Source: Utricularia gibba (taxonomy: Eukaryota; Streptophyta; Magnoliopsida; Lamiales; Lentibulariaceae). Taken from it: DNA of 64,000 nucleotides. The position numbers and the translations under genes are program-made. Shown here one piece after another: positions 1 to 20,968 of this stretch (positions are counted from its first letter, which is position 1; the number at the start of each line of letters is the position of its first letter). The stretch spans positions 744,001 through 808,000 of the forward strand of contig NEEC01000010.1 in the NCBI GenBank assembly GCA_002189035.1, given 5' to 3'. A model generated the notes under the pieces. That model saw only the letters and a list, made by a program, of their open reading frames with translations, was not told where the DNA came from and searched no databases.

Positions 1-560
1 TACCAACGGTGTCCGATTGAACCCTTCTCCTTAGGTGCTTGAGGCCAACCTTTGATTATTCCACACTCACTTAGGGTTATATGGTACTAAACGGCACATT
101 GGTAAAGAAAACGTTGCGAAAAACAGAATCAAACCTCAATTTAAATATCGAAAAACATAGTAAAACAGTCACACGTGCAGGACTTGCGCAAGCAAGGCTT
201 CACCGTAGATCATCAGCCGCAAATGCCTACATGCGCAGACTCGACTCAAACATGAAAATAGACACGAAAATAGGAAAGATTCAAAGTAAAAGTGGTCAAA
301 GACATTTCTAATGGTTGAGAGAGTGAGGTATTTATAGGAGAGTAGATCCAAGTCTTCGTATTGACCTTATTCGATGGGCTTGGATAAAATCCTCTATCCA
401 AATCTTTTATTCAAATCTTCAAAGATTTTCTTCACATCTCTATCTTATCCACAAATCTTGGATCAAATCTTCATCGTTTGACCGAGTCTTGGGCTGGGAT
501 TCGTGGCCCATCAAGTCCATACTTTGGTAGATCTTGTTTCTTCTCAAATTGATCCAAAAG
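1..560 (-). repeat. LTR-like retroelement fragment, copy A
   Basis: This stretch matches 7285-7880 over several hundred bases at perhaps 70-75 percent by eye. Shared blocks include the 'ccgattgaa..cttctccttaag/ggt' start, the 'aaaaacagaatcaaa' block and the 'cgcaagcaaggcttca' block. Read on the minus strand, a TATAAATACC-type box lies near 328-340, as expected of an LTR promoter, and the distal part is rich in repeated 'aaatctt' words. No retroviral coding sequence lies beside it. The copy runs off the left edge, so its true end is unknown. An LTR is the best reading; another dispersed repeat class is possible. Confidence 0.5.
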
Positions 561-841
561 TACCCTAAAAATCCACAAAATACAATTTCTCTCCAAAAAA
601 ATCAAAGTAGTGTAAAAGATGCAAAATCAATTGAGAATAATGAGAAAGTGGGGTCTAAGATAAGTAAAAACAACACTCAAGAGTAGTGGAATAACATGTT
701 TTGGAACGACACTTATAACACACATTTTTCCTAAAATTCATAACACAAAATAGCTATATTTTATCATGATTTAGGTTAGATAAATGTAGTTTTTCATGCT
801 TTAGTGGTGTTTATGTTAATCCTATGTGATTATGTTGAAAA

Positions 842-869
842 GTGGACTAAATCCTTTGATTTAGTCCAC
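842..869 (+). other. 12-bp perfect stem-loop inside element copy 1
   Basis: The arms 842-853 and 858-869 are perfect complements around a CTTT loop. The same hairpin occurs at 16115-16140 in the other copy, with one base pair exchanged on both arms. Confidence 0.85.
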
Positions 870-1130
870 AACTCTTATTACTAACATTTCAGTAAGTTCA
901 CCAAGGAGATGAGCCGAAAATCAAACTTGCAAACGTGTAAATCAAGCAAAAAAAGGGGCGCAAAATCCGGAGAAGGACAAAGAGCAATGTTCTGCCGCCA
1001 CCGCAGTCTGCAAGTTCAGGCTAGGAACAGTGCTGGCGGACAGCAACAGTGCAATGGAGTGAAGGAAAGGGGAAATTTATTTTTTCGAAAAAAGGAGGAA
1101 GGAGAATGGAGTGAAGAGACCGGGGGGGGG

Positions 1131-1258
1131 GACGCAAAGGGGTCTTCTTCCCCAACGGAAGAACACAGAGAGGGGGACGCAAGGGGGTCTTCTTCCCCAA
1201 CGGAAGAACACACAGAGGGGGGACGCAAAGGGGTCTTCTTCCCCAACGGGAAAAACAC
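1131..1258 (+). repeat. 45-46 bp minisatellite, about 2.8 units
   Basis: Units start at 1131, 1176 and 1222, each with GACGCAA followed by 'gggtcttcttccccaacgg'. They lie inside element copy 1 just after a run of ten Gs (1122-1131). The other element copy has a single divergent unit ('gggtttctcccccaac', about 16398-16415), so the array expanded after the copies separated. The open frames across it on both strands are a by-product of the repeat. Confidence 0.85.
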
Positions 1259-1318
1259 CAACCAGAAGGGGGAAGGGAGGCCTTCATCACCAAGAATAGC
1301 ACCGGAGCCCAGTCTAGT

Positions 1319-1346
1319 GCTACTGTTCCGGGCGGTGAACAGTAGC
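1319..1346 (+). other. 10-bp stem-loop inside element copy 1
   Basis: The arms GCTACTGTTC (1319-1328) and GAACAGTAGC (1337-1346) are perfect complements around an 8-nt loop. The counterpart is 16513-16538. Confidence 0.8.
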
Positions 1347-2813
1347 TAACGGGCGGAAGAACAATCTTTATTTACTTTCTAGTTTTCTGAACATTTCGAC
1401 TTTCTGCATTTTACTTGTTTACAATGTTTCTGCCATTTTGGCCAACTTATATGAATGAAATCGTGTTTTATTTCCAAAGCATGAGTGGCTAGAGTCTTAG
1501 GGATGCCTTAAGGAGAAGTGGGTGGTATGTGTTTAGATTGATGATGAAATTTAGTTGTCTTCCTTAACTCTTGTTCCTAACAAACCATGGGTAGACCTAA
1601 GGAGGGGAGCAAGTAGTTTCACAACTTAGATGCTTGGTTTAGAGGTAGACCAACAAACCAAGACAGGATCAGTCGGTGTTAGTCCAGGGTAGAACCAGTA
1701 GAACGGGGTAGACCTAGTTCTATATGCCTTGCATGTGGGTAGACTTAATTGCAATATTGGTTATGATATTGGAGACTAGCTTAAGCCAAAAATATGATGA
1801 ATAACCTGGGTAGACTTAGGTTATTTGAAGTTGTGAGTGTAGCAAGATAATAAATTAAGTTAGGAAGCTTAGCATAACACCACCCGCAGACCCTTAAGGC
1901 GTCCTAGTATTAGTCTGAGTCAAAACCAGTACCTGTTACCTTAGCGTAGAAACCTGATATTGCTTACCTACCTTGTTTACTGAACTTGTTTACCACTGTT
2001 AGTCCGAACTTAGACTAAGACCTACTGTTATCCGAAATTATGCATGTACTAAAACACTTAGCAAGCACAAGCTCTTCGTGATCGACCCCGATATCCACTA
2101 TACAAGTTTTCCAAATTTGTATTTTGTGTAGATTAGGGATTATAAATTTATTTGATCCGGATTTTCTATTTTTATTTTCAACGATATTAGGAAATTTCCG
2201 TTTATCAAACACAAAATCTCTTATCACTAATTTTACTATAACATGTAAAATTGAAATATAAAAAATATAATGCAATAAAGAATTGAAATAATTTATCATA
2301 CCAAAATATAATCAAATGTATATATGTGAATATGCCATCATAATCATGAAATTTTTTGTATTGATTGTGTTCTTTAAAATGATTAAAATCACTAAGATCA
2401 TAAAATTATTGGATAGATATTTTTTATCTTATGACGTATTTTGGATTTCCTAATATTCTGATATATATAAATATTTGAAACTTATAAAGTTAACAATAAA
2501 TATATATTTTAATAAAAGAATAATTACTTCCAATGCTTTAATTGCTCCATCAACAATATTTTTTGAAATATACATTTCAATCTCAAATGATAAATTATTT
2601 AGATTAAAAAGAAAATGTAATATTTCTTTATTAAAAAAATTAATGGATCTTGCAACTCCGATACTTTTATTATAGAATTTAATAGTCAATTGAATATAAT
2701 GGAAATCAAGAACTATTCCAATTTCATTGTAAATAATGTCTAACAGATTTTTCAAAAAAATTATATGTTTAGCTGTTATAATCTTTAAAATAGATCGATC
2801 GTAACTCACATAC

Positions 2814-2927
2814 CCACTTTCATCTTCAAGAATGCGACCATTAGCATACAACTTCAATATTACGGGAGTTCCACTTTTATCTGCAAGAATGCAACCACAA
2901 GCATACAACTTCAGCATTACGAGAGTC
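2814..2927 (-). repeat. 57-bp tandem duplication, in frame
   Basis: Two adjacent 57-bp units are about 80 percent identical by eye. Because 57 is a multiple of three, the minus-strand open frame carries the repeat as two 19-residue segments, each ending with a 'KSG' or 'ESG' tripeptide. The parent gene is not recognised; it may be a decayed coding fragment. Confidence 0.7.
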
Positions 2928-3480
2928 ATGGGATAATGATATAGAGGATTCTTTTGGTAGTAGAAAAATATAAAATTAGATCATAATGTTCTTATCTTCA
3001 ATCATATGTATAACTAATTTGAAAAATTTATTTAATATTTATATTTTTTTCAAAAATGAGAATTAAAAAAGATATTAGCATGTTAAAAATTAATTATATG
3101 AGCCAATTAGATTTAAAAAATAAATTATCTTTTTCATGTCCCTTATCTTATACGATAATATCTTATTTATGATTATATATTACATATATTTTATTTTTCT
3201 TACAAATTGATTTTTTGGTTATTCACATGGTATAAAAAACACTATTATCATATATAGAAAAATGCAAATATGAATTTAGATATAAGGTATTTTACAAAAT
3301 ATTGATATGAATAGTATAAATTATAAATAAAAGTTTAGACTAAAAAAATAAGAATTTAATATTTCAGTACAGCTATTTGCACATCATGGGATGTTATATC
3401 GAATGAACTAATACAGAAACCTATGTTTGTGCTTGTTTGTTTAACTTTATCGAACACTTTGCCTTTGGTTATACAATATA

Positions 3481-3522
3481 TTTTTAACACAATATTTTTA
3501 ACACAATATTTTTAACACAATG
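3481..3522. repeat. 14-bp unit x3
   Basis: Three head-to-tail copies of TTTTTAACACAATA occur, the last with one changed base. Confidence 0.9.
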
Positions 3523-4491
3523 TCAATCGAAAATCATTGATAATTTAACACAAAAATAATTTTTAATATTATATAGTAAATAATAATACAATATATTTAT
3601 ATATTTATTAATATAATATATTTTATATTATTATTTTATATGAATTCAAAATACATAATTTTGATATTATATTATATATTATAAGTGAACAAAATCAAAT
3701 ATAATTGAACATTGATCTTATTTATATTTATTCAATAAAGTAATCAAACATAATTTTTTTATGTTAATTTATTTATAATATTCAAAAGAAAATAAATGAT
3801 CTTAATCGAGTTAAATATAATTCGACCACAATTTGTTTGTTCATTCTAACATCCCTATGCATATGGTTATAAAATGTGATGCATTGTTTTGAAACTTTTT
3901 TTATATAAATATGATTTTAGTAATATTTTATACTAATAATAAAAAATAAAATAAATTTTATTGTAACATGAATGAATATATTATTTAAAAATTATGAATA
4001 ATTTAATTTTACCTCTCACATTTGATCATTATAAAATCAAAAATAATTTTGATATAAATAAAAATAATAAGAAGTTATTTTGTATATATAAACTATTCTA
4101 TTTATCAAAAGGTAAAAATAAATTTCAATACTTTTTTATAATATTAGATAGTGATTGAAATAAATAAATTATTTATGAAAAAATATAAATTAAAACGATA
4201 CAAATGTATCATATATGTATTATATAATATTGATTATGTATGAATAAATTGCATTTTTTGAAAATTTTGGTTGGAAGAAATGCATAATTCAAAAGAAAAT
4301 ATGATATAAAAAAATTAATTAACTTTTTCATTTTAATTAAATTTTTTGTTCAGTAGGGTAAAATACAACCCAGACAATAAAGTTAATTAATAAAGAAAAT
4401 GTAAAAGTAGAGTAAATCACAAATCAAATTTTAAAAGTAGACTATTTACTCTATTTCCTCAGCATTGGTGTTCGTGCATCTCTGAAATGCG

Positions 4492-4498
4492 TATATAG
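4492..4498 (+). promoter_or_regulatory. TATA box of HSCB
   Basis: TATATAG lies 41 bp before the HSCB start codon, so the 5-prime leader must be very short (10-20 nt if initiation is at the usual distance). Confidence 0.5.
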
Positions 4499-4538
4499 AG
4501 ACGAAGCGCACCAGTCACCGTGCCAAAAATCTCACAGC

Positions 4539-5897
4539 ATGTGGAAGAAGCCGCTTCGCGTTTCGGCGGAAATCTCGCCGACTCTTTTGTTGCGCGCCGT
4601 TTCTGATTCTTCTTCGCTTCGCCGGTTCCGTTATTCTCCTCCTTTCTCTTCTTGCCGTTCCTTCGCCACTATCGGCGCCCAAAGAAACGCTTTCCCTTTT
4701 CCCAAATGCTCGATTTTCGGTGCTATTGAGAGCAATTTCGGAAGTATGCTCGTCAAAAGTTGTAACTCATTCTGCTCCCAGCCCAAGATTGCGGAGCATT
4801 TCCGGTGTTGGAATTGCGGCGCTGGTGCTGAATCTGCGACGGCACTTCTGTTCTGTCAAGTCTGTCGCAGTGTCCAACCGGTTGATGAGTCCATTGATTA
4901 TTTTCACATTTTCGCCCTGTTAGTGTTTGGGTTTCTATTTCGACTGATTTGGGTTCAATAGAAATTACTATGTGAAGCTGCCGCTTCAATTCTTCCCTAT
5001 ATGTAAATTCGTGATCGGCAATTTAGGTCTCTGTGAATTGAGCACCGATGGGAGATTTATCAACTGTATAGCTGTTGATCATTCAATTGATGCACTTCTT
5101 GCTGTTATGAAAATGATTGTATTTTGGTCGTTTTAGGAAGAGGGAATATAAGATCGAGTTGGAAGAATTGGGGAAGGTGTATAAAGAGTGGCAAAAGAAG
5201 CTGCATCCTGATCTTGTCCATTCGAAATCCCAGGTTAATGGAGCATCGTAGTGGTAAAAAAACTCGTTTTTTTTTGTATAGTATCAGTCCTGAGAAAGCT
5301 GGTGTTTTGAATTAGAGGGAAAAAGACTATGCTGCTGAGCAGTCTGCTCGAGTAATCGGGGCGTATTACACACTAGCTGACCCCTTGTCGAGAGCCATCT
5401 ACATTGTATGCCTTTTTTTTTTTTTGTTGCGTTCGCAAGTGCTTGTGTGGAAGGTGAACGGGGAGTGCATCTGTAATGTGCAATTACTTTTGTAGGCGAA
5501 ACTAGAGGGTAAACCAGTCGATGAAGAAGAAAGGATTACAGACCCGGAGCTGCTTGCGGAGGTTTGCTCATGATGATGCATTATGCTGCACCCTGTTAAT
5601 GAGCTTTAACATTATGTATTCCCAGATAATGGAAATCCGAGAGAGCATCGATGACGCCAACGATACGCAGTCCTTGAACGCGATCCATGCCCAGGTAAAG
5701 AGTACACAATCCCACTGCACCTCAGCAGGATTTTATATTGCATTCATTCCTTTGTTCAGTTGCAAGAGAAGTTTCTGGACTGGTCTAATTCCTTCCAAAT
5801 GGCCATTAACGCGAGGAACCATGAGGACGCCTTGTCGTCGATACGCAGAATGATTTACTATAGACGCGCTATCGAAGAAGTCGTGAAAAAGCTCTAG
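4539..5897 (+). CDS. HSCB: HscB, mitochondrial Fe-S cluster co-chaperone (J-protein)
   Basis: HscB is the J-protein that delivers scaffold-bound Fe-S clusters to a mitochondrial HSP70. Six exons join in frame: 4539-4918, 5137-5233, 5316-5405, 5496-5561, 5626-5694 and 5760-5897, giving 279 residues. Residues 1-80 form a Ser/Arg-rich targeting presequence. A zinc-binding module follows with Cys90, Cys93, Cys106 and Cys109 (CWNC...CQVC), typical of eukaryotic HscB. The J-domain has the essential HPD at 150-152. The C-terminal HscB helical domain follows (DPELLAEIMEIRE and the RRM..YRRA stretch) and ends in KKL. The start is the first ATG after a TATA box and precedes the presequence. All junctions are GT-AG and conserved blocks are unbroken, so the gene looks functional. 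Family assignment rests on recalled HscB sequences. Confidence 0.95.
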
Positions 5898-7284
5898 CCC
5901 TGAGCTGGCGCTGAAATACCATGTGGTTCTGTATTCTGTCAGATTGTTTGTGTTTCTGGAAGGGGAGAGACATTTACCTCTGTTCTTCTAAATTCCAAAA
6001 CCATGACCCTCTTCTAATTTTTGAACAATGAATATTGAAATTCTTCTTTTTGTTACAGGGTTGAAGGCTCCACAATATTGAATGATTGATAGTAAAAGGT
6101 GGAGTGGTAATCTGGAAAACATGAAAACTAGAGGTACTTATTCAATAGGAGAAAGATTTAAGTATGTGAGAAAGAAACCAACAAAATTTGTTCAAAAAGT
6201 TATAAGAACTTTGGTAAAGTTGATTACCCTTCTTTGGAATTTTTAAATTTCCGAATGTTACAATTTACGTGTTATACTTTTTTAATACATTTTCTTTAAT
6301 AAAAAAATATAAAATGTATGATTATAATATTTAGTACAAATTTTAAATATTTATGGATTAAATATAAAAAAATAAAAGTGAAGATTTTTCAATGGGTTTG
6401 AATTTAGTAACAATAGCCCACTTACCAAATACATCTTTGTTCATAAATATATAGATCTGAATTTAAAGATATCCAAATAATTAATATGTAGACTAAAATC
6501 TAGCCTGCAAATTAAACTAACAATTAGAGTTTTGGAATAAAAAACTGAGTCAATGCATCTTGAAACTCTAAGTTATCCATATCTTTAGTTTCATAATTTA
6601 TATTCAAGATTTTTTGGTATCATTATTTTAAATTTAGTATATCATTGTGTACGCTTAATGAATTTTAGTTAAGGATTAAAATTAATTGCAATAACTCAAA
6701 AGAATCAAATTTTCATACCATGAGCACCGTCTCATTGTATTCGATTGCAAAAGCTATTGTATATATTGTGTTAAGTTTGTATTTTATGTAAATTAATATT
6801 TATAAATTTATTCATTACGAAAATTTTATATTTCACAATGACTACAAAATTTTCATTTATCAATTGTTGATGATAGTTATGCAAATATACAAAAACTATC
6901 GAAATAATATAATAAGATCGTATACATAGAGAATAATTATTTGAATTTTATTTTTAAAACAATAATTCAAAAAACTGAAAACAAAATAAAAATTTGATTT
7001 TAAAAAAAATAAGAAAATTGACTTTGCATCTAGAATCTACTTTACTTAAAACTCGCCCAAACTTGTGTGTGTAAACCTTGAAAACTGACTCAATTGCACA
7101 AGTTATGACCTTGTAAACCTTGAAAATTTGATGACTGTCATAATATTGTCCCTCATTTAATAAGATTATAGAATCAATCATGACATCAGAGCTATTTCAC
7201 TTCTTGTGATAACCTGTATTTTCTCCACACTCAAATCTAACCTCTATATCTTAAGTAGATAGATTAAATAGAATGTGTTTAATC
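5898..7284. other. AT-rich intergenic DNA with possible retroelement remnant
   Basis: No gene is seen. Around 7181-7195 the plus strand reads 'catgacatcagagctattt'. This resembles the initiator-tRNA primer-binding site of copia elements (TGGTATCAGAGC) and could mark the inner edge of a decayed LTR lying to its left. No coding domain supports it. Confidence 0.4.
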
Positions 7285-7880
7285 AATGATATCCGATTGA
7301 ATTCTTCTCCTTAAGTACTTGAGCCCAATCTTTGGTACTTCTACACTCTTTTAGGATTATGGAGTACTCAAAAGCACGTTGATAAAGAAAACATTGCAAA
7401 AAATAGAATCAAATCTCAAATTAAATGTTGAAAAACATAGTAAAATAAGTACACGCGTAGGATTTGCACAAACGAGGCTTCATCACAGATCTTTAGTTGT
7501 AAGTGCTCACACGCACATGCTAAATTCTAAACAACACGAGTTGATAAAAAAACGATAAGAAAAAAATCCAAAACATGCTGAACTCGACTCTAAACCTAAA
7601 ACTAAATATGATGATTTTGATCTTCGCGTTATGGTCTTTATACAATAGTGATGATAAGTCAGGTTTTCTTAATAGTCTCATATCCAATCTTTTATCCAGA
7701 TCTTTTAAAATATAATGCAAACCTTTTAGGATAAGATCCAAATCTTTCAAAATAAGATGCGAATTTTATCTTATTCAAAATCTTTGACTGTGTATTCATA
7801 TAGATAAATCAAATCTTTGACTTCATCAAAGTCAATTCGAAAATACTTCAAATTATACTAATATTGTCATGAAAAATTAC
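7285..7880 (-). repeat. LTR-like retroelement fragment, copy B
   Basis: This is a second, more diverged and more AT-rich copy of the sequence at 1-560, in the same orientation. The match begins at 'atccgattgaattcttctccttaagtacttgag', runs through the 'aaaacattgcaaaaaatagaatcaaa' block, and fades into a region of repeated 'aaatctt' words. No coding sequence accompanies it. Confidence 0.55.
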
Positions 7881-9191
7881 AAAACACAATTATCCTATAA
7901 AAAGATTAAAATAATATGAAAGATATAAAAAAAATTTAAATCATAAATAAAAAAATAAATGGAATATAAAAACATTCTAAAAAAACCCTAAAAATTATAA
8001 ATATAAGTAATATAAAATTACTTATGAATTATGTATTATGAAAATCTTCGATAATAATGTAATATTTCTTGATTTTATGCAAAAGGCTGCAGCTTTGTAA
8101 GTGAGGCACATAGTTATGAATGTGTATGCTGTCATAAAGTTGAAAGGTCTTTACTAAATAAATTGTATATGATTCTATAGAGCAAATTTTGGTTAATCAC
8201 CACTTATTATGCAGATCCTTTCCTTCTTTGGATTTCGAGAGAGTAAGCAAGAAAATGGGATGATTTTTTTTTTCTCTTGTAACAATTTTAGAATTGTGTC
8301 CAACCATGAATAGTAAATACTACCTAAAAGAAATATTTTTGTGTAAAATAGTTTGACATATGTGACTAATTTTCACATTGACTTCTCAAGCGATAACCAA
8401 GTAGAGTATTTCAATAAAAAAAAAAGCTCTTCTTTCTCTCTAGTTTCTAAAGATTGCATAATTAATTTTGTGTAAAAAGGAAATTAGTTTGGTAGTATTA
8501 TTTAAATCATCGATCATTTGTACTTTCCTAACCCCATATATACTGGTTTTAGGAACTTGAGATATTACAAACCTTGCTAATAAAAAGAAAACCATGAAGT
8601 GTTTTCCAGAAAATCAATCGATTTTCAAATTTTTGAATTAAATTAAGAAATAACAACTAATGTTTTAAATTTCTAAAAATTTGGATTTGAATTTTTTGAG
8701 GAATGAAATCTGTTTGACCTCTCCTAACTTAGTTGAAATAAAAGTGGGGTATGGATGGACCTCTCCTAACTTAAAAAAAAACAAACTTAATAGTTTATAT
8801 ATATTTTTAAAAAATAAAGTGTAATGCCCTTAAAAAATTGTTATGTGCCGAGTAACACTGATTCAAAAGATTTGTTGAATTGGAAATAATTGGAAGAACT
8901 AGAAGTGGAGAGGCGGCCTATGTAAAAAAATGATCTGCTAATAATGTTGTCATTATTTACATATTCTTTTATTCGAGTGCGACGTCGTCGTTTGAATGAG
9001 ACATTATTGTATGGCTCCTCGAGTCGTTCTCGTCTCGTGGTATAGTGGGGCCCGTACCCGAGTAACGTTAAGAACCAATTTGAATTTCAAATTCGCAACG
9101 GTTGAAATCCCTAAAACCCCCGATTTTGGAATCGTCTGCGGTGGTTGGGTTCGTGTTTTTCATCGGAATCCCCTGTTTCCTTTCTCCGATC
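7881..9191. other. Intergenic region upstream of the DUF936 gene
   Basis: This is AT-rich and carries no recognisable gene. A GACGTC (ACGT-core) motif lies at about 8980, some 210 bp before the DUF936 start codon, and may belong to its promoter. The upstream in-frame extension of the DUF936 frame (from about 9102) is treated as leader, because the family begins at MASLTPG. Confidence 0.5.
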
Positions 9192-11580
9192 ATGGCTTCT
9201 CTTACCCCAGGTATTCTTCTCAAGCTTCTCCAGTCCATGAACTCTCCCACGAAAGTAACCGGCGACCACCGAAGCGCCCTTCTCCAGATAATCGGAATCG
9301 TACCCGCTCTCTCAGCGGCGGATTCCCTCTGGTCCCATCACGGATTCTACATCCAGCTTTCGGATTCACTGAATTCCACCTACGTTTCACTCTCCGACCA
9401 CGACAACGAACTCATACTCACCAACCGTCTCCAGCTCGGCCAATTCGTGCATCTCGATCGTTTTGTGTTTGATTCACCGCCGGTTCCTGTCGTTATGAAT
9501 CTCCGGCCGGTCGCCGGCCGCCACCGCTTTGTTGGGTCTCCTGAGCCCCTGATTGCTATCTTTTCCCATTCTAACGGGTTCGTTATTCAGCCGATGACAG
9601 ATTCCGACCCCTCTGGTGATCTCCTGGCGGCGTATTTGTCGAGGGCCGGGAAAAAGAACATGGAATCGACTGAAAAATGTGCTGAAGATGTGGTTTTCAG
9701 GCAAGTGACTGCACCGAAAGAGAATGTAAATGTGAATGTGGCCGCTAATCAAGGAGATGATCGCCTCAATGCAAAAAAATCAGTTTCGGAGAGGGGATCA
9801 CAAAGATTTTCATCACCTGGAGCCTTGAAGCAAAGAACAGTTTCACATGGGAATAAATCTGCTCCCCCAGATAGGGATCCGTCACCTGCAGGGAGGTCGG
9901 GGAAGAGATCTGCCTCACCTGTACCTTCTAAATGCGTCGTACCAAGTCTAGCAGCTGCCAAAGAAGAAACCAAGAGGTCATCAAGGGAGCCAGCTATAAT
10001 TGTGCCATCTAGATATCGATTGCCTTCCCCGACATCTGGGAGACGGCAGGCGAGTCCCATGGTTTCCAGACGAATGTCACTTTCCCCAGGGCGGAGATTG
10101 TCCGGCGGGCTTAAGGTATCTTCGGCAATGGATTCATCAGGAAAGAAAAGAATAGCTAACATTGCTGCTGGAATTCCCAAAGTTTCGGATGCTATTTTGG
10201 GTTCTGGAAAACCCAGTAGAAAGAGCTGGGATAGTGGATCAGCTTCAGGTGATGTAGATTCTTCTAAAGAAAAGGTGGGGACGAAAAACAAACTTGATCT
10301 ACAGGTCATTTTGAGGACTCAGGTATCGAATATTTCCCGTTTAGCAAACCTTCCAGAACGTGTAAATTGTGCCCCCCCCCCCCCCCCCCCAATGCTAATG
10401 ATGCTATCTCTTTAGGCTGCTATTTCAAGACGTCTAAGTGATGTGCATGAGCATAATGACACTAAATCTGGAAGCCTCGAAGCGGAGGATAATCCCAAGT
10501 CTGCATCAGAAGCTCCAGTGATCACCATTCATGAAAAGAAGTGGACTGATGGAAGTGTTTCCTTGGATACGCTGTCTTCAGGGCTTGCGAAATTGGGGGA
10601 GGTGCAGATTATAAAGAACTAAACTTTTTTGTTCTGAAGTTAGTTTCCTTCACTGCTTCAGTTAGTTGTATTAAGCTTGTCAATTTGCTTTCGATCAGGA
10701 TGCTATGCTCAGAAGAAGGATTGCATCAACAGCAGCTTCTGAAGCTTTAGAGGAGGCAATCGCTACTGAATCAATTGTACGAAACTTAAGGTATGAAGCA
10801 TTGATTCTTTGTTACTCTTAACTGCATCAGCAGCAGCTTCTTACGTTCATCAAGCCCCGGATTTTCTGATTGATGATGTTTTCCCTCAATTGGTGCAGCA
10901 AGTTTTCAGACCTAGTTTCAACCTCAAGGCTTGAAAACCCACTCCCCACTGTTGATCACTTCATGTCGTTATATGAAGAGGTTCTCAAGTCAACCGCAGA
11001 TGCGGAAGCAGTTGCCAGTAACCACAAACCATCACCCAGTGTTGAAAGCGCATCGTTAGAATCGTCAAGATTAAGCACCCTATGGGTTGAGTCTGCATTG
11101 GCTACGAATCTTGAAGTAGTCTCTCTTTTAACGAACGACTTCTTCACTCGCTCCACGAAAAAGGAGGATGAGAAATGCAAGAAAAGGCTATCTCCAGTAG
11201 CCCCTCGTAAGACAACTATGAAGTCAGTACCTGCAACATGGACCAGGGGACAAGGAATGAGGGAGACAGTGGAGCTTGGGAAGAGCCTCCATCGGGAGAT
11301 GCAGTTTTGGTTTCTAGGATTCATCCAGTCGTCCTTGGATGCAGGTTTTGGCGTTGTTGCAAGATGTAATCCTGCTGTAGGCCCCGATCGAGGCCTTATC
11401 GCAGCTGCATTATCACAGCTGAAGCGCATCAATGACTGGTTGGATCGAGATGGGACCAAGCGCGAGGGGATCATACTAGAGAAGATTGATCAACTGAAGA
11501 GGAAGATTTATGTGTTTGTGATTGAGCATGTTGGCACCACAACTGATAATATGATCCCATCAGCAGTAGCTTCAAAATGA
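9192..11580 (+). CDS. DUF936 family protein (CORD-type microtubule-associated)
   Basis: The protein begins [17 protein letters not shown], the hallmark start of the plant-specific DUF936 family. Some members (CORD proteins) bind cortical or phragmoplast microtubules and affect their organisation through katanin. Exons are 9192-10322, 10416-10601, 10699-10790 and 10899-11580, giving about 696 residues. Residues 3 to about 120 form the conserved N-terminal domain. Residues about 190-375 are a basic Ser/Pro/Arg-rich, probably disordered linker with repeated SP motifs, as expected of a microtubule binder. The C-terminal half holds the conserved EKKWTDGS and [12 protein letters not shown] blocks. 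The first intron is only 93 bp, contains a run of 19 Cs (10372-10390) and stays open in frame, so retention would add prolines before an in-frame stop. Function is inferred from the family. Confidence 0.9.
10372..10390 (+). repeat. C19 homopolymer in an intron
   Basis: Nineteen consecutive Cs lie inside the 93-bp first intron of the DUF936 gene, about 25 bp before the acceptor. This is an unusual replacement for a T-rich polypyrimidine tract and a likely length-variable site. Confidence 0.95.
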
Positions 11581-14029
11581 ATAGTTGCTTTTTGGTTGTA
11601 AAAGCTGCTTCAAAACCTGGCCAATTCCGTTTCCTTATTGCTTCTTGATATTTAACATCGTGCGAATTAGTCCTGCAGTGTGTTCATGCAGTTTCGAAAA
11701 GTCAAATCTCCGTATCCGGTTCAATTTTTAACTGTGTATCATGTAACTTTCTTTGTTCAGAGAGTAGATTTGTGATTCACAGGGAAGAAATTAGCGTAAC
11801 CAGGAGGCTGCCTGTGCCCGAGGACACGGAGCTGCTGCTCCTCTGAGCCATGTCTGATGAACATGGAGGCAGGCGGCCATTTTAATTTTAGCACCGGGAT
11901 GCGGGGACTCAAAATGAAAAGGGAAGACTTCCAGATTTAACAGAGCTGCGGTTATGCAGCGTAGAGTTTTATGGAAACTGGGAGAACTTGATCAGCCCAT
12001 GCTCTGAACTTTTTCGTCTGTTTGCCCCCTACACAGGATTTCAGAGAGCTCATGAATTCATGAAGGCGCTTCTGAGTTCCAGAAGGAAACTGGGAAGGTG
12101 ACAAGTTGAGTGGTGGTTAATAATATTCGTAGGCTCATGCTGCAGACAATTTGAAGCTTAATTCTAAGAGATTCCTAGAGTACACCTCAGAGTTCTCATT
12201 CCATACACTTGTACACACCTCTCTGGGGGGAGTACCTGGACCACGGTTTAAGTGGCCAACGACTTCAACGTGAAGTAGTCGAGTTTCCAAGCATTCAAGA
12301 TAGTTCTTGCAGTGGATGATAATTTGGATTCTTGGACATACAGCAACAAGTTCATCAGTCTGAGTTTCAATCATGCTTACCCACCCTACACACTTGTCCA
12401 TAATGAACAAAAGTTCATCAGCCTCTACTTAGAAAGGTCTCGGATACTGATAGTCCTTTCCCCAACCTTAGCATGCTACGTCTCTCGCAAGGGATTCTCA
12501 AGGAGAGTGCCCTAGCCCCACAACACATGGCCAACCACTAACCAAATCCACGACCAGAAACTGAAAGAATTTCCAAAAACCTCCTTACAGGTTTAAAATG
12601 CCGTAGAGAGCGAGTAACTACAGAAATCCACATTTTTATCCAAAGATAGACGCAAAAGCATCGTTCATGGAGATGGCACCTAGTGCTTTGAAACGACCGG
12701 ATAATCATGCACCTCAGACCATACCTTATTAACTATAAAACAATACAATAGCAATCTCAAATACGGTCCTTATGCTATCTTTCCTATGCATATATATATA
12801 TATAACATCCTCAAGGATTGCGTTCGTCTAAGCAATGATCAACCCATAAAATAGTTTTATTTTTAAAAATTAAAGTGCCCCTTTACCATATTTGTATAAT
12901 TACCTACAATTCTGTTAGAAAGCTAGAAAAATATGTTTTAAGCTTCATGGGTGTATGAGAGAAGGTTTGTTTTACAAATTATGTGTTTGGCTTGATGATG
13001 GAAAAGGGTTTTTAAAAAAGAATTGGGGTTGTGTAGATTGCACTAATTTGTACGATCTCACACTTGTCATTCAAAAAAATTATAAATAATGCCCCTAGGC
13101 ACCACTTGTGATGAAAAATATTACATTCAAGATGATCCATGTTAATGAAAACATGTAGGGATGGATACGTTAAAACGTTGAAGCCTCGTAATGTAAAACT
13201 TTCTCGGAAGCACCTCATAAAGTTGCTAATGATATTGTATTCGAAAATACAATGAAAATGTAGCCTCAAGGAGAATCATGTATAAGACTAAAAAAAAGGA
13301 AGCTTGTGGGAGTCAACCTATAACTAAGTCTTTACTCACGTATTATAGTTCCAATGTTTAGGTTAATTTAGTTGATTGAAGTTAAAGATTTTTGTACCAT
13401 TTTGTTTTGTTTGGAATTGAGGTTGATTGTGTTGGAAAACATGGAAAAGATGATTTATGCTAGTAGATGATCATGCCTTTTATATTTAAATTAGCACAAC
13501 ATGATTGTGGTTTCAGCGTTATATTCCATGTGAAGTCTTTTCTTATGAAATAAATGTTGTTACATAATGGTTTACTTTCACAAAAGTGATGAACTAATGA
13601 AACAATGAGAAGGTAGCTATTACATCTCAATTGTAGAAATTTCTGATCATGCACTTGGAGGGAAGTGTTATTGCTCATAGATTATCAGGAGCGACCAAGT
13701 GGCTGATTTGATTGGAAAAGTAAACAAAATTGAAACATGGAATGACTAACTCTTTATTGTACAAGTAACTTATTACTAATTTTATTTTATTTGACACGTG
13801 AATAGTATTTCTTCATAATAGATGATTAAAATAGAAAATTATATATTGTTATCCCTTTATGTATATATGTAAGTCATAAAGATGAAATAAACAAGAATTG
13901 GACTTTTAGGAAAGGAAAACACCCCAAAAAGATCAAATTCAACATAATCTGAATCATAACTTTAAATTAAATCGCGGCATGGAAGCATTGATCATTGATT
14001 GGATTTGGTAGGCGGTCACATAATTTCCA

Positions 14030-14035
14030 CACGTG
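14030..14035. promoter_or_regulatory. G-box CACGTG
   Basis: CACGTG in an ACACGTGT context lies 287 bp before the RING gene start codon. It is a binding site type for bZIP and bHLH factors, including ABA-response ABFs and PIFs. Confidence 0.45.
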
Positions 14036-14175
14036 TTTCTCAAAAGAAAATAAAAATTAGCAATGAACACCATAATCCCAACTCTTGGGTTTCTTCCATT
14101 AGTTTATTTTATTTTTTGTATATCGGGCGGGCCGGATAGCAGTAGGTCGTCGGACATTGGGCGTGTAGTAAATAA

Positions 14176-14181
14176 CACGTG
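14176..14181. promoter_or_regulatory. G-box CACGTG
   Basis: A second CACGTG lies 141 bp before the RING gene start codon. Two G-boxes within 300 bp suggest ABA- or light-linked control of this gene, which is inference only. Confidence 0.45.
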
Positions 14182-14321
14182 AAGTGGACCACTCAGTAAA
14201 GAAACAGTCGGAGAGCGTGAGGCATTGCGCAACCTGGATTCATTTTTTTAATGGCTCCCTCGTTGACAAAAACTCCAAACTATTAACTTCATCTGCCAAT
14301 TCCATTTTTACCTTCGACGCC

Positions 14322-14930
14322 ATGAACTCCTCCTCCAATGCGCCGGACAGCATCCTCTCCAACTCTATCAACAACGGTAGCTTAGGCTACGGTATCGGCG
14401 TCTCCGTCGTCCTCCTCCTCATCACCGTCATCACATCCGCCACATACTTCTGCACCCGAGCCACCATAAACAACTCCGTCGTCCCCGCTCGGAGCCCTCC
14501 GCCGGCGCACCACTTTTCGGTAATATCATTACATGTTTTCTGAGGGTCATGTGTTCCCGTGAAATCCATGAGGCAGAAATATATCTTCATTGTTGATGGA
14601 ATATAGTTTCTAATAAAGGTGAGCATTGATGTGGGGGAGGGACTAGACGAGGCCACGCTTAGTAGCTACCCGAAGCTGCTGTACTCGGAGGCGAAGGCAG
14701 ATTCCCGTGGGGGGGACTCTGCATCGGCTTGCTGTTCGATTTGCTTGGCGGATTACCAGAGCAACGACGTACTCAGGCAGCTGCCGGATTGCAGCCATAT
14801 GTTCCATTTGCGGTGCATTGATAAGTGGCTCAGGCTTCACCCTACGTGCCCTGTTTGCCGGACATCCCCGATGCCGACGCCGCTCGCGGAGGCGGTTCCC
14901 CCGCTTCGGGGCACTCTTCTGTGGAAGTAG
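14322..14930 (+). CDS. ATL-type RING-H2 E3 ubiquitin ligase
   Basis: ATL proteins are membrane-anchored E3 ligases that recruit E2 through a RING-H2 finger. Two exons (14322-14519 and 14619-14930) give 169 residues. A hydrophobic segment at about 22-44 is the membrane anchor. The GLD motif at 74-76 (GLDEATLSSYPKL context) is the ATL signature. The RING-H2 ligands are Cys105, Cys108, Cys124, His126, His129, Cys132, Cys143 and Cys146, with Pro122 before the third Cys and Trp136, both ATL hallmarks. The closest remembered relative is ATL67. Most ATL genes lack introns, but here a 99-bp intron separates the membrane part from the RING part. The ATG at 14322 is the first in frame; upstream frame has none. 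G-boxes lie upstream. Confidence 0.88.
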
Positions 14931-15987
14931 AAATCAGTCGCCGATGACTTTCAGCTGATCATGACTTTCGAGCCAGATCTTAGTTTTTTTTTAAAAAAAA
15001 AATTAATTTTAAGTTGAGATATACAAAAAACTCATGAAAAGGATAAAAAGCAAATCCCCTCAGAATAATTATTCAACACCCAAATAAGAATAGGAACATG
15101 AATAGGTGTTTCGAGTCATGGGCTTCGCTTCCCAAACTATTGAAATACTCAAATATGTCAGTACACAATAACTAAACTACGAAAAAAATAAGATTTAACT
15201 TCAAATACACCCAAGCGTAGAGGTATGTTCGAACATAAACCATACGGTTTCACTTCGGTTCGACAAATTTGGAACCGTGAACCGTCGTTTTGTTTTTTAA
15301 TAAGATTAATTCCCCAAGCACCCATACAATTGGTAAGGATACTTAGAAATTCATAATGATTTCCAATTACACATATGATCAATTCAAAACATTCATAATG
15401 ATTGTTAAGGGTGTGTTGACACCACATCGTTTCTGGTTTCCTATTTGGCAAGACACTCGTATTGATTCCTAAGAGTGTCTAGGATCAATGCTAGACACCT
15501 ATAATGACTGTTAAGGGTGTCTAAAATGATTTTTCAAAATAGAGATTTATTCTCAGGCACCCTCAACAGCTCTTGTGCGTTCCTTGGAAACAATTCCAAT
15601 TTTGATTCATTTGAATGGTTTTGATTCAATTCAGTGGTTTCAGTTTGGTTCAATAGTTTCAGTTCCAATAAAATAAACAGTTATAAAAACTAAATATCCA
15701 ATAAACTAAAAATAAAATAAAAATAGTTTTGATTCTTATTGGCTACTATTCACAACCCGAAATACTAGCATTGATATGAGTTTTTGATGCTATTTTTCAA
15801 GTTTGAGGCTTTTCTTCCAGAAAAATCATCTTCTTTTTCCTTTTGATTTGTTGTTGAAGCATGTTGAAGAAGCTCTCTTTGTGTTCTTCATTGAAGCTCC
15901 CTCCTTTTTCGATTCTATCTCCTCTAAAATATCTTTTCCTCTCTTTCTTCAATGTAGGTACTGTTCCTGATAGTCATGATGTGACTG
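14931..15987. other. Intergenic region, no gene seen
   Basis: The sequence is AT-rich. Between 15390 and 15560 several 'ggtgtc' and 'gacacc' words recur in both orientations ('gttaagggtgtc' appears twice), suggesting a degraded repeat. No coding region is recognised. Confidence 0.5.
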
Positions 15988-16114
15988 ATAACACACAAAT
16001 TTTCATGTTTTAGGATATAAAAAATCATAAATTTTTAATTATGTTTAAGTGTTTATTTTATATTTTAAAGTGTTTTTATGTAATTTAGGAAAATATAATT
16101 TTTGATGTGATTAG

Positions 16115-16140
16115 TGGGCTAAATCCTTTGATTTAGCCCA
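16115..16140 (+). other. 11-bp stem-loop, counterpart of 842-869
   Basis: The arms 16115-16125 and 16130-16140 pair perfectly around a CTTT loop. Relative to copy 1, an A-T pair has become G-C on both arms. Confidence 0.85.
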
Positions 16141-16512
16141 TCCCATGTCTAACCCGATTTTCGAGTCTAGCAGCAACCCAAGAATCAAGGAAAAATCTGG
16201 ATTTCGTGCACGTCACCAGGCTGCAGGGGGGCAATGAATACACTGTCACGGCGGTAGTCTGCAAGTCAGGGTCAAGAGCAGCAAATTTGTCAGAAAATGT
16301 ACTTGACTTGGGCAGTGGGAAGCAAAAGAAAGATGATGAGGAGAGAGAGTTGCAAAAAAAAAGGGACACACCCCATAATTTTCAGAACACACACGAGGGG
16401 GTTTCTCCCCCAACTCGAACACAAAGAATACTGAAGGAGGAGGAAGAAAGGCGATTTTTCTGGAGAAGAACCTCCAACTTGAAGGGAAGGAGATCAAAAT
16501 TCAGTTCAGCGC

Positions 16513-16538
16513 CACTGTTCCGACCTATGAATAGTGGT
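16513..16538 (+). other. 9-bp stem-loop, counterpart of 1319-1346
   Basis: CCACTGTTC (16513-16521) pairs with GAATAGTGG (16530-16538), with one G-U wobble and one compensatory T-A to C-G exchange relative to copy 1. Confidence 0.75.
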
Positions 16539-17673
16539 AGACGGAAACCAGAACTCTACTGCTTTATTTTAGTTTGTTTATGTTTTTAGTTTCTGCACCC
16601 AACTTCGGCACGATGTTCTTAACATTTTCGTTGTCTTATGTTAATACCATCACTTTTTACCTTCAAAGCATGAGTAGTTAAACCCTAGAAATGCCTTAAG
16701 GTGAAACATGGTGGTGTGGGTCTAGGAGTCTTAATAAAATTGACCATTATTTCTTAGGCCTTGTTTTTATCAAACCATAGGTAGACCTAAGGAAGGGAAT
16801 AAGTAGGTTCACAACTTAGATGTTTGATTTAGAGGTATATCAACAAATCAAGACGAGACCAGTAGGTGTTAGTCCGGGGTAGAACTAGTAGAATCGGGTA
16901 GACCTAGTTCTATATGCTTTGCATGTAGATAGACCTAATTGCAAGGTTGATGTTGATATGGAGGACTAGCTTGGCCGAAAATATGATGAATGATTTGGGT
17001 AGACTTAGGTTATTTGAAGTTGTGAGTGTAGGAACATGGTAGATTAAATTAGAAATTTTGGCACCACACCACCTATAGATTCTTAAGGCACCTTAGTATT
17101 ATTATAAGTTAGAACCAGTATCTTTTAGTTTAGTGTTAAGACTTGATTTACTGATCTTGTTTACCGAACTTATTTACTACTGTTGGTCCGAGCTTAGATT
17201 AAAACTTATCATTACCTTGAATTCTGCATCTATTGAAATACATGACAAGCGCAAGCTCCTTGTGATTGACCCCGAATTCCACTGTACACTTTGTGTTTAA
17301 TTTGTATTTTGTGAGGATTATGGACTACAAATTTATTTGATACGGATTTCTATTTTTATTGCAACGATACTAGGAATTTCCGTTTATCAGTGATGAAAAT
17401 GCACTCATTGTCTCCTTCTTTTATATTGCTCCTAGTGCTGCATGAAATTTCTATCTGATTCTTACCCGACTTTAAAACCTTGTTGCTATGCTGAAAAAAG
17501 AAGTTAATAACATTGAATGAGTGAAATCAAAGGATTTAACCTATATGTACACAAAAATATATATACTCCTAAATTTGACAAAAAAAAAAACTAAAATAAT
17601 GAAATAAATACTCAAAATATAATTAAAAAGTTACAATTTTTGTATCATAAAAATAAGAAAATTTGTGTGTTAT

Positions 17674-19087
17674 TAATATACACTTGCGATTAAAGATCTG
17701 CGATAAAACCTTAATTGCACAGTTCATTGCACATATGACCATTTATTATGTTTTTTAATATTTAATTTGTTATTTGATTTCATTTTTTCGTAATGTTTTC
17801 TTTGTTAATATGCTCATTATTATTGCAAAATCCTAAAAAAATATGAGAGAATCTTAAATTGAGCTCAAGCATCTAAGGAAAAAGTTTTAATTAGATATTA
17901 TTGACAAGACACATTCAATTTATTCTATCTACGAGGGATTAAATTGTATGGATTAAGATCAGGTGTAAGGAAAACATAAGTTATCATAGAAAGTGAAATA
18001 GTTATGATAACATGATTGATTATATAATCACACTAAATGATAGATGATGCTATAACAATAAATGAGTGGTTATACTTTAGAATAATATTCTTAAAACTTA
18101 TACAAATGAGTTAATTCTTAAGGTTTACATGTACACATATTGGGATAAGCTTATGCATGGTAAAGCATTGATAAAAAATCTATATTTCTGTTGTTTTAAA
18201 AATTATTTTTTTCATTTTGATGTCATTTTTAAAAAAAAATTCAAAATTAATCAATTTTCTATAAATACAATCTTTATTTATTATTTTAATGATTTTTATG
18301 TATTTACATAATTACCATTAGATTCCTATAATCTCAAGAGAGTTTCAAAGCTCTAAATGTTTGCTTTACTAGATTTATGAAGCTAAATAAAATCTTACAT
18401 TCTTTTTCTCTACTTTACTGCCTTTATTACTCAAAGTGCTCGTTATTCAATAGTAAAAAAGCTTACAATTGGGGTTTACGAGGTTAGAGTGTTTCGTGTA
18501 TAGCTTTAAATTTGATTTGTATGTAACTCTGCTTTTTGTAAATTAATATTCTGGAATACAAAAATCTACAAACTTGAAAAAACAAAGAAAAACTCCACTT
18601 TTATATTGATAACATATCTTATCCTTATTGATTGACTTAAAGCGTGCTTTCCAACACGGAAACTAATTTATCAAGCATTCACTTATGTGGACTCCATCTT
18701 TTGCTCCTTCTATTTATTTTATACCATTTTTCATGAATAATACAAATTCATATAATGAAAAATATTGCAACTGTCTATGACCGTAGTCCCTATATGGGTT
18801 TATTTATATTTATCCATCTTTATTATTAATTAATATCCTCTTTTTTTTTCGGATCAGTCTTTCTTGTACCGTCCCCAACTTTTTTGTCTGCATAATTTGT
18901 TTAAAAAATTGTTTAGTTAAAAAATAATCTATTGTTATTTATTTGTACAGCTGTCATAGGCCATAGTTTATTAATTAAAATGGGTGTCATTTTCATGATT
19001 TTTATTTTCAGTTATAAAATGGCAAATATGGTCTCTATAAATTTGAGGTTGTGTAATGAAGTAAATATCGGGACTAGAGAAAAAAGA
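17674..19087. other. AT-rich intergenic DNA upstream of the carboxylesterase gene
   Basis: No gene is seen. The reading frame of the next gene stays open upstream of its start (from about 18932) but encodes nothing conserved. Confidence 0.5.
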
Positions 19088-20968
19088 ATGGGTTCGCTTC
19101 CTCGTGTAGTTGAAGATTGCGTCGGTATCGTGCAAATTTACAGCGATGGCTCGATTTGCCGCTCGGAGGAAATCGATTTTCCGATGAAGCTGCACGATGA
19201 CGGCTCCGCCGTATGGAAGGACTGTCTCTACGACGAGACGCATAATCTTCACCTCCGCCTATACGGGCCCCGTTTGCGGGCGACTACTGCGGATCTCCCC
19301 GTCCTTATCTTTCTACACGGCGGCGGGTTCTGCCTCGGCTCGAGGACGTGGCCCAACTTCCAGACCTGCTGCCTTCGCCTCTCGGCGGCGCTTCAAGCCG
19401 TCGTGGTGGCCCCGGACTATCGGCTTTCACCGGAGCACAGGCTGCCGGCGGCCCTGGAAGATTCGTTGGCCGCAGTTGAGTGGCTTAAGCGCCAGGCTAT
19501 GTCCGCCGCCAGTGGCGCAGACAACTCCGAGGAATGGCTGAGAGATGGGGTTGACTTTGATAGAGTTTTCGTGATCGGTGACTCTTCCGGCGGGAACCTT
19601 GCCCACCACCTCGCAGTGGAACTCCGCCGTGACTCCCCGACACTGGCCCCTCTACGCGTCCGAGGTTACGTTCTGATGGCGCCGTTCTTCGGCGGCAGCG
19701 TCAGGACCAAATCCGAGGCGCACGGCCCTCCTGAGCCCCTCCTCAACGTTGACATTCTGGACAGGTATTCTCCAGTGGCCTCACTTTTATCATTATTTTT
19801 ATTTTCCTCGAAACTCTTTTTATCCACAATAATCCCATCATGAATTTGCATTTCTGGATAAAATAAAAATAGGCCCATGAAATGAAATAACGCACATATG
19901 GGGAGTATTTTGAAATTAGGATGAAACCTTTCTGAAGACAGCGACGGGCAGGGAGAGGAGAGATAGATCCATGTATGCATATCCAGGTCCTAAAATCAAG
20001 CCCCACCGTTTTTGTTGTCTTTTCCGACTCCAGGCACAAAATAATGATATTTTAAGCACTAATCATATCCAGGGACACCCTGTACTTATCTGGAGGAGGA
20101 CTACACCACACCACATTCATAGGACCAGATTTCAAACTTATCCAAACTGTTCCTTGGTTGGATGGATCTACCCACACCTTTCAATCCTCTTCTTTTCTAC
20201 CGGCCTATGAGTGGATAATCAAAACAAAAGTGATTTCAACTTTTGCATTAGGTGACATTCCACCTACCCCCATGTGAATAATGTGCAATTTTTGGGGTCT
20301 TTTTAAACATTTTATCTCATACACTAATTTCAGAATTATTTTATACCTTATTTTTCACCCACAATAAAAATAGGATATTATTTTTCAAAATCATCCTAAT
20401 TTCTGGGGTTGGGCTATTAATAATTTCTTTCTTTTATTTACAGTGAATGCCTGTTGCTGTGTTTTTGTGGTAGTGACTCGTGAAAACAAAAGAAGAGAAA
20501 AATAACTGTGTTGTGGATTTTTGTTATTTTTTTTTTTTTCACTTGGGCTGCGCGACCTCTGCATGTGGAAAAATAAATGCTGTACGGGTTCCAAGTGGGC
20601 GTGGAAACATTTTATATTGTTTGTAAGGTTGAAGAGGCTAAAAATATTTGAACATGTACAGTTTCTGGAGGCTGTCACTGCCTACTGGGGCGACGGCAGA
20701 TCACCCGGTAGCGAATCCGTTTGGGCCGTCGAGTCCAAACATGGAGTTGGTGGATCTTGGTCCGATGATGGTGATGGTTGGAGGAAAGGAAGTGATGAAG
20801 GACAGAGTGGAAGACTACTACAAGAGACTGGAGGCAATGGGCAAACACATCGAGTACCTTGTTTACGAGGGGGAGTATCATGGCTTCTTCGTCAACGACT
20901 CCTATTCTCAGCTCTCCGACCAAGTCTTGAACCACCTCGCCGCCTTCATCCATCGGAATTCTCAGTAG
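19088..20968 (+). CDS. CXE15: CXE15-like carboxylesterase (alpha/beta hydrolase)
   Basis: This is a GID1-like plant carboxylesterase, soluble, of the HSL family. Two exons (19088-19764 and 20662-20968) flank an 897-bp intron and give 327 residues. The oxyanion motif HGGG is at 77-80, the nucleophile Ser166 sits in GDSSGG (164-169), and His299 lies in EYHGFF. At the acid position, where most family members have Asp, this protein has Glu269 (GGKEVMKD). As I recall, Arabidopsis CXE15 shares that feature, and also the MGSL start, the EDC(V/M)G block, the RVRGYVLM block and the FWRLSLP..ANPFGP block. CXE15 enzymes hydrolyse strigolactones, lowering their level. Orthology is strong by motif; substrate is inferred. 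Confidence 0.9.

Follow-up and report, generated by a model that had tools for sequence, protein, structure and literature searches.

A 64,000-nucleotide stretch of the nuclear genome of Utricularia gibba (assembly GCA_002189035.1, contig NEEC01000010.1, positions 744,001 to 808,000 of the forward strand; hereafter the window) contains two copies of a short hairpin, each located in its own long terminal repeat (LTR) of a probably Athila-like element family. Loop inversion in the genome-wide copies of this hairpin is recurrent and homoplasious, the four loop bases being replaced by their exact reverse complement between unchanged arms. The A-T/G-C difference between the two window stems is a single event that splits two LTR subfamilies, A and B. 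In our judgement the hairpin is likely to act in cis as a conserved element of dyad symmetry within the 5' (U3) portion of the LTR, subject to template switching between its arms, with the A/B swap fixed only once.

The two window hairpins (Table 1) share a CTTT loop and have perfect stems, the second of which is extended by a G.T pair at 16114/16141. The sole difference between the stems is at pair 3, which is A-T at 846/865 and G-C at 16118/16137. The first-pass annotation of this DNA had reported the stems, the common loop and the swap, and direct reading of the sequence found each of them in place. Both hairpins fold as RNA at -17.6 kcal/mol, with z-scores of -6.3 and -5.7 and 0 shuffles as good; the scores are about -6 as RNA and as DNA alike. 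Besides a shorter hairpin at 1319, these two are the only ones in the 64-kb window with arms of at least 10 bp containing at least 4 G/C, and shuffled sequence seldom produces perfect arms of comparable length and G+C content. The two hairpins are more than a product of chance. A search of window positions 1-20000 against Rfam gave 0 matches up to E = 1.

It had also been supposed that the hairpins mark the terminal regions of one element spanning 842-16140. This was rejected, as the hairpins belong to two separate LTRs with their own ends and flanks, in each case about 130 bp inward from the LTR start. The 5-bp flanks are GACAC/AACAC for LTR A and GTGAC/GTGAT for LTR B. With 4 of 5 positions matching in each pair, these are two distinct LTRs, each probably solo and from a different subfamily, rather than the ends of a single element. 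LTR B has a mean column identity of 81% with LTR A, and the 3' half of LTR A has genome copies up to 98% identical. Family LTRs have sharp ends (TGATAACACACA...CGTTTATCA) and a length of about 1.4 kb, and the 5-bp flanks agree at 4 or 5 positions in 38 of 57 complete LTRs. Copies with sharp ends and matching flanks are LTRs, mostly solo.

A search of 100 Mb of genome sequence with the pattern GGRCTAAATCCTTTGATTTAGYCC gave at least 378 matches at up to 2 mismatches, and the reversed control gave 0. There are 75 exact copies of the G-C type and 79 of the A-T type. Exact G.T intermediates at pair 3 number at least 5 among the matches listed, and a genome-wide search for exact A.C copies gave 0; deamination should yield both equally often, and the numbers are small. 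A set of 174 distinct copies was oriented by flanks with the hairpin masked. Another sample was found by the LTR 3' half alone and comprises 57 copies with a readable hairpin (the hairpin-blind copies). Since most other copies had been chosen for near-intact hairpins, frequencies are quoted from these 57.

Among 201 copies the loop is CTTT in 156, AAAG in 31, CCTT in 7 and AAGG in 1, with a few others. AAAG is the exact reverse complement of CTTT, as AAGG is of CCTT, and the arms on either side are unchanged. Four transversions would be needed to pass from CTTT to AAAG, and no series of intermediate loops was seen among the 201 copies, which makes the change an in-place inversion. The flank-oriented set has 139 CTTT and 29 AAAG loops, the latter in 4 of 82 copies of subfamily A and 25 of 92 of subfamily B. 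Inverted loops occur in 9 of the 57 hairpin-blind copies (about 16%). On a tree built from the flanks only (about 300 columns) the loop changes 24-25 times, nearly as many as with shuffled labels (mean 27.4), and at least 9 of the changes are forced by strongly supported branches. Repeated flipping of four bases by assembly error is unlikely. The use of flips as a clock for copy age was abandoned, as a weak trend was found in B only.

One verified insertion carries opposite loops in its two LTRs, L205 and L048. The target-site duplication GTTTT stands before L205 and after L048, both are on the same strand, and the primer site and the internal end are correctly placed. Its 5' LTR has the loop AAGG and its 3' LTR the loop CCTT. 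The related LTRs L042, L066 and L068 have CCTT, so the 5' LTR L205 was inverted after insertion, in the last reverse transcription steps or via later conversion. A further pair, L245/L246 (C460:627788-636301), consists of 91% identical LTRs 8.2 kb apart with loops AAAG and CTTT. These two are on one strand and both preceded by the internal 3' end, resembling a tandem LTR-internal-LTR-internal-LTR arrangement. The pairs L203/L204 (C402) and L218/L219 (C244) were ruled out as LTRs of one insertion. In L054, L057 and L227 an arm has been lost with the breakpoint at or in the loop, which is another sign of hairpin-driven instability. The first-pass annotation had named copying between the arms as the alternative that could account for the paired change, and the recurrent exact inversion of the loop provides direct positive evidence for it.

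The same annotation had taken the swap as a sign that pairing itself is kept, in RNA or in a cruciform recognition signal, with several significant covarying pairs expected across the genomic copies. Almost every copy of subfamily A has A-T at pair 3 and almost every copy of B has G-C, and the other states of this pair are one-sided or broken. Stem changes in the hairpin-blind copies are one-sided in 30 cases and two-sided in 1 (0.6 two-sided changes are expected if the arms mutate independently), so that the predicted covariation is absent. In three pairs both partners have changed, and 116 of 500 shuffles attain that number; the A/B split accounts for 11 of the 14 two-sided cells. Strong multi-pair covariation was rejected on these hairpin-blind copies, and a structured RNA family was rejected for lack of an Rfam match in window positions 1-20000. 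Other paired states were seen in subfamilies at pair -2 (G-C/A-T), pair 2 (G-C/A-T) and pair 4 (C-G/T-A). Pair 4 is T-A in L190, L192 and L193, and pair 2 is A-T in L195, L196, L197 and L198. The extra states listed for these two pairs are few in number, emerged from a targeted look and include some apparent sister copies, as L190/L192 and L196/L198 probably are. Paired stem changes were seen only singly, none of them coinciding with a loop flip. Genome-wide, double mutants at the two pairs are not convincingly in excess: a count by hand over about 160 intact copies, restricted to otherwise intact hairpins, gave 2-3 per pair with roughly 1 expected. The idea of kept pairing survives in part: the hairpin is an island of conservation and a few other subfamilies show paired changes, but the swap is a single event and covariation is absent.

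The conservation of the hairpin is seen when subfamilies A and B are compared. Across the 5' half of the LTR, 24-bp windows average 48% identity. The hairpin is the best-conserved of them, with 92% versus 46% in the flanks of +-100 bp, and 92% is reached only by windows overlapping it. As the best-conserved stretch of a diverged 5' half, the hairpin is constrained in sequence in active elements, i.e. in the transposing lineage. Related families with barely alignable flanks retain GTTGGGACTAAATC/GATTTAGTCCCAAC or AGACTAAAT/ATTTAGTCT, with different outer pairs. Over the 201 copies the inner pairs 5-10 are nearly invariant and pairs -2, 1, 2, 3 and 4 vary, which looks like recognition of sequence plus symmetry rather than of pairing alone. 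Protection of the stem after insertion was rejected: in five presumed LTR pairs (small numbers), stem and flanks differ with about equal frequency. The arms of dead copies decay one-sidedly.

How could a paired change arise in such an element? The inverted repeat may extrude as a hairpin during DNA synthesis, and the polymerase could then switch template between the arms. Such a switch would invert the loop and could also rewrite one arm from the other, by which overwriting a one-sided mutation would become a paired change in a single step. In the literature, loop inversion is put down to template switching, a process by which compensatory changes can likewise arise in one step (PMC8794818). 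The A/B change would thus represent either one arm-copy event or an ordinary two-step change, and not independent compensations in series, and it would have been fixed in an active lineage that needs the dyad. We infer template switching between the arms from the inverted loops, and it may also have caused the A/B change. Because loops flip recurrently, matched arm changes may stem from arm-to-arm copying and not only from selection for pairing. The flanks of the hairpin-blind copies are 6-11% diverged from their subfamily consensus. Taken with the frequency of inverted loops in these copies, this gives an inversion rate per hairpin similar in magnitude to the rate of substitution per site. 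Arm copying is at least as available as a second independent substitution to account for the A/B pair.

Several observations weigh against this explanation. No copy combines a flipped loop with a transfer from arm to arm. Broken pairs are found in 2 of 10 flipped and 22 of 47 unflipped copies, a difference that fits arm copying but is not significant (P 0.17). Flips are only weakly more frequent in the more diverged B copies (P 0.08). The occurrence of exact G.T without A.C at pair 3 hints at an RNA stage tolerant of G-U pairs, and the spread of flips across the tree could result from recombination within the family.

With regard to what recognizes the dyad, we favour DNA, perhaps bound by a protein dimer, over an RNA structure, since the sequence of the six inner base pairs is almost constant while the loop turns freely. 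The arms could be inverted half-sites, GATTTAG/CTAAATC, for a putative dimeric transcription factor in a U3 enhancer, with pairing as a by-product. The near-invariant core TAAATC/GATTTA amid varying outer pairs and loop, the free orientation of the loop and the location close to the LTR start are all consistent with such half-sites. Binding alone, however, leaves the matched half-site change unexplained, and we give this proposal serious consideration while rating it at somewhat less than an even chance. It is a sub-hypothesis of the template-switching explanation and compatible with it. A selected RNA hairpin in the element transcript, converted from A-T to G-C in two steps via a tolerated G-U, appears unlikely to us. 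It would account for the strong fold in both subfamilies, the conservation island, the exact G.T intermediates without A.C and the extra paired changes at pairs -2, 2 and 4. However, the G.T copies are decaying LTRs in which no selection is expected, the two-sided pairs of the hairpin-blind copies are equalled by shuffles, Rfam gave no match, and the inner six pairs are near-invariant in sequence, beyond what pairing alone requires.

A still less probable explanation concerns the flips, which would be a few old inversions spread by LTR recombination during reverse transcription or by gene conversion. Related LTRs do look mosaic, some B-type 5' parts being joined to A-type 3' halves, and high-frequency recombination among LTR family members is known (PMC5668417). 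However, flips are found in A stems bordered on either side by A flanks, in B stems within B flanks and also from CCTT to AAGG, so that several independent inversions are needed, and the two LTRs of one insertion, L205 and L048, differ in loop orientation. Finally, it is very improbable that the A-T/G-C difference is a meaningless coincidence of two unrelated transitions in a diverged repeat: both changes are transitions at deamination-prone G/C sites, there was one event only and the arms of dead copies mutate independently, but two independent hits on partner sites are not expected in what is otherwise the best-conserved 5' LTR stretch, and across the genome no stem state is commoner than the two intact types.

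Minute inversions in the hairpin loops of chloroplast DNA were reportedly described by Kelchner and Wendel in 1996. Small loop inversions are found, for example, in Lauraceae plastomes (PMC6824564). As in these cases, the LTR hairpin has a short loop between perfect inverted repeats that undergoes exact in-place reversal, recurrent, homoplasious and between close relatives. Unlike them, it resides in LTRs of a nuclear genome that contains this one hairpin hundreds of times, which allows independent events to be counted relative to the divergence of the sequence. The template-switch hairpins of Monttinen and Loytynoja 2022 (PMC8794818) show the same loop inversion footprint, and both sides of their stems can change at once. 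In the ribosomal RNA genes of that study loop inversions are rare (69 cases of loop inversion alone), whereas about one in six copies of one hairpin is inverted here, and the multiple simultaneous stem changes reported there were not seen among the LTR hairpin copies. With the stem-loops of PMC3601003 the LTR hairpin shares that both arms can be conserved within LTRs; those stem-loops lie in the R region or at the polypurine tract, in contrast to a position apparently in U3. In the papers searched on palindromes and hairpins of LTRs, nothing matched the Athila-like LTR hairpin. The repeated inversion of the loop in a nuclear hairpin of many copies is a new case of a known process.

The primer-binding site of the family, AAT-TGGCGCCGTTGCCGGGGA, is located 3' of several 5' LTRs and presumably complementary to tRNA-Asp in its TGGCGCCGTTGCCGGGGA part. 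Some family LTRs are preceded by a fixed internal 3' end (...GTTGTAGCATAGTG), and the internal distance between LTRs is about 8.4 kb in the best-preserved cases. The family is probably Athila-like Ty3/gypsy, an assignment drawn from primer-binding site and size. Diaspora and Calypso, of the Athila lineage, have a primer-binding site of the tRNA-Asp type (PMC1142308), as is the case here. TG...CA LTRs and 5-bp target duplications are shared with the lineage (Athila, Calypso, Diaspora), and the 1.4-kb LTRs and the size of the internal part add to the likeness. The site begins 3 bp after the LTR, unlike in Diaspora (5 bp). The window also contains the internal 3' region of related elements three times, at 4-250, 7136-7530 and 17681-18057 (minus strand). 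A small palindrome, GACTTG-GGGA-CAAGTC, stands about 44 to 28 bp upstream of 3' LTRs such as L002, L048, L049 and L051, near the expected polypurine tract. The primer-binding-site pattern GTTTATCAAATTGGCGCCGTTT recurs at C413:3586871, 3591334, 3595800, 3600263, 3604730 and 3609197, with a spacing of about 4,465 bp, and again at 3618847; in C413:3586871-3618847 a short related element is thus arrayed in tandem. A related, probably younger family is marked by about 25 exact copies of GTTGTAGCATAATGTGATAACACAT and has the LTR hairpin GTTGGGACTAAATC/GATTTAGTCCCAAC; L209 and L221 retain this hairpin whole or almost whole, and L200, L214 and L216 have lost one of its arms.

Table 1. Hairpins and LTRs of the family in the window.
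Feature	Position	Strand	Basis
Subfamily A LTR, complete, probably solo; start TTATAACACACA (mutated TGATAACACACA), end CGTTTATCA	713..2207	+	end motifs, flanks
Hairpin, 12-bp perfect stem (842-853/858-869), arms GTGGACTAAATC/GATTTAGTCCAC, loop CTTT (854-857)	842..869	+	sequence, fold
Subfamily B LTR, complete, probably solo; TGATAACACACA...CGTTTATCA	15986..17389	+	flanks, identity with LTR A
Hairpin, 11-bp perfect stem (16115-16125/16130-16140), arms TGGGCTAAATC/GATTTAGCCCA, loop CTTT (16126-16129)	16115..16140	+	sequence, fold
Third, degenerate LTR fragment of the same family, decayed hairpin GGTTAAATCCTTTGATTTCACTC	17510..17673	-	inverted-repeat matches

A paired A-T to G-C change is usually read as the best evidence of a functional stem. 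With an inversion rate about that of substitution at a single site, arm copying cannot be ignored when covariation serves as evidence, and the hairpin described here cautions against taking compensatory changes as proof of RNA structure. We suggest, tentatively, that this hairpin may be an undescribed required element of Athila-like LTRs whose copies record template switching, and that mutation may by itself yield compensatory changes at about the rate of single substitutions. In this multi-copy setting, the inversion rate is directly measurable from LTR pairs of known age.

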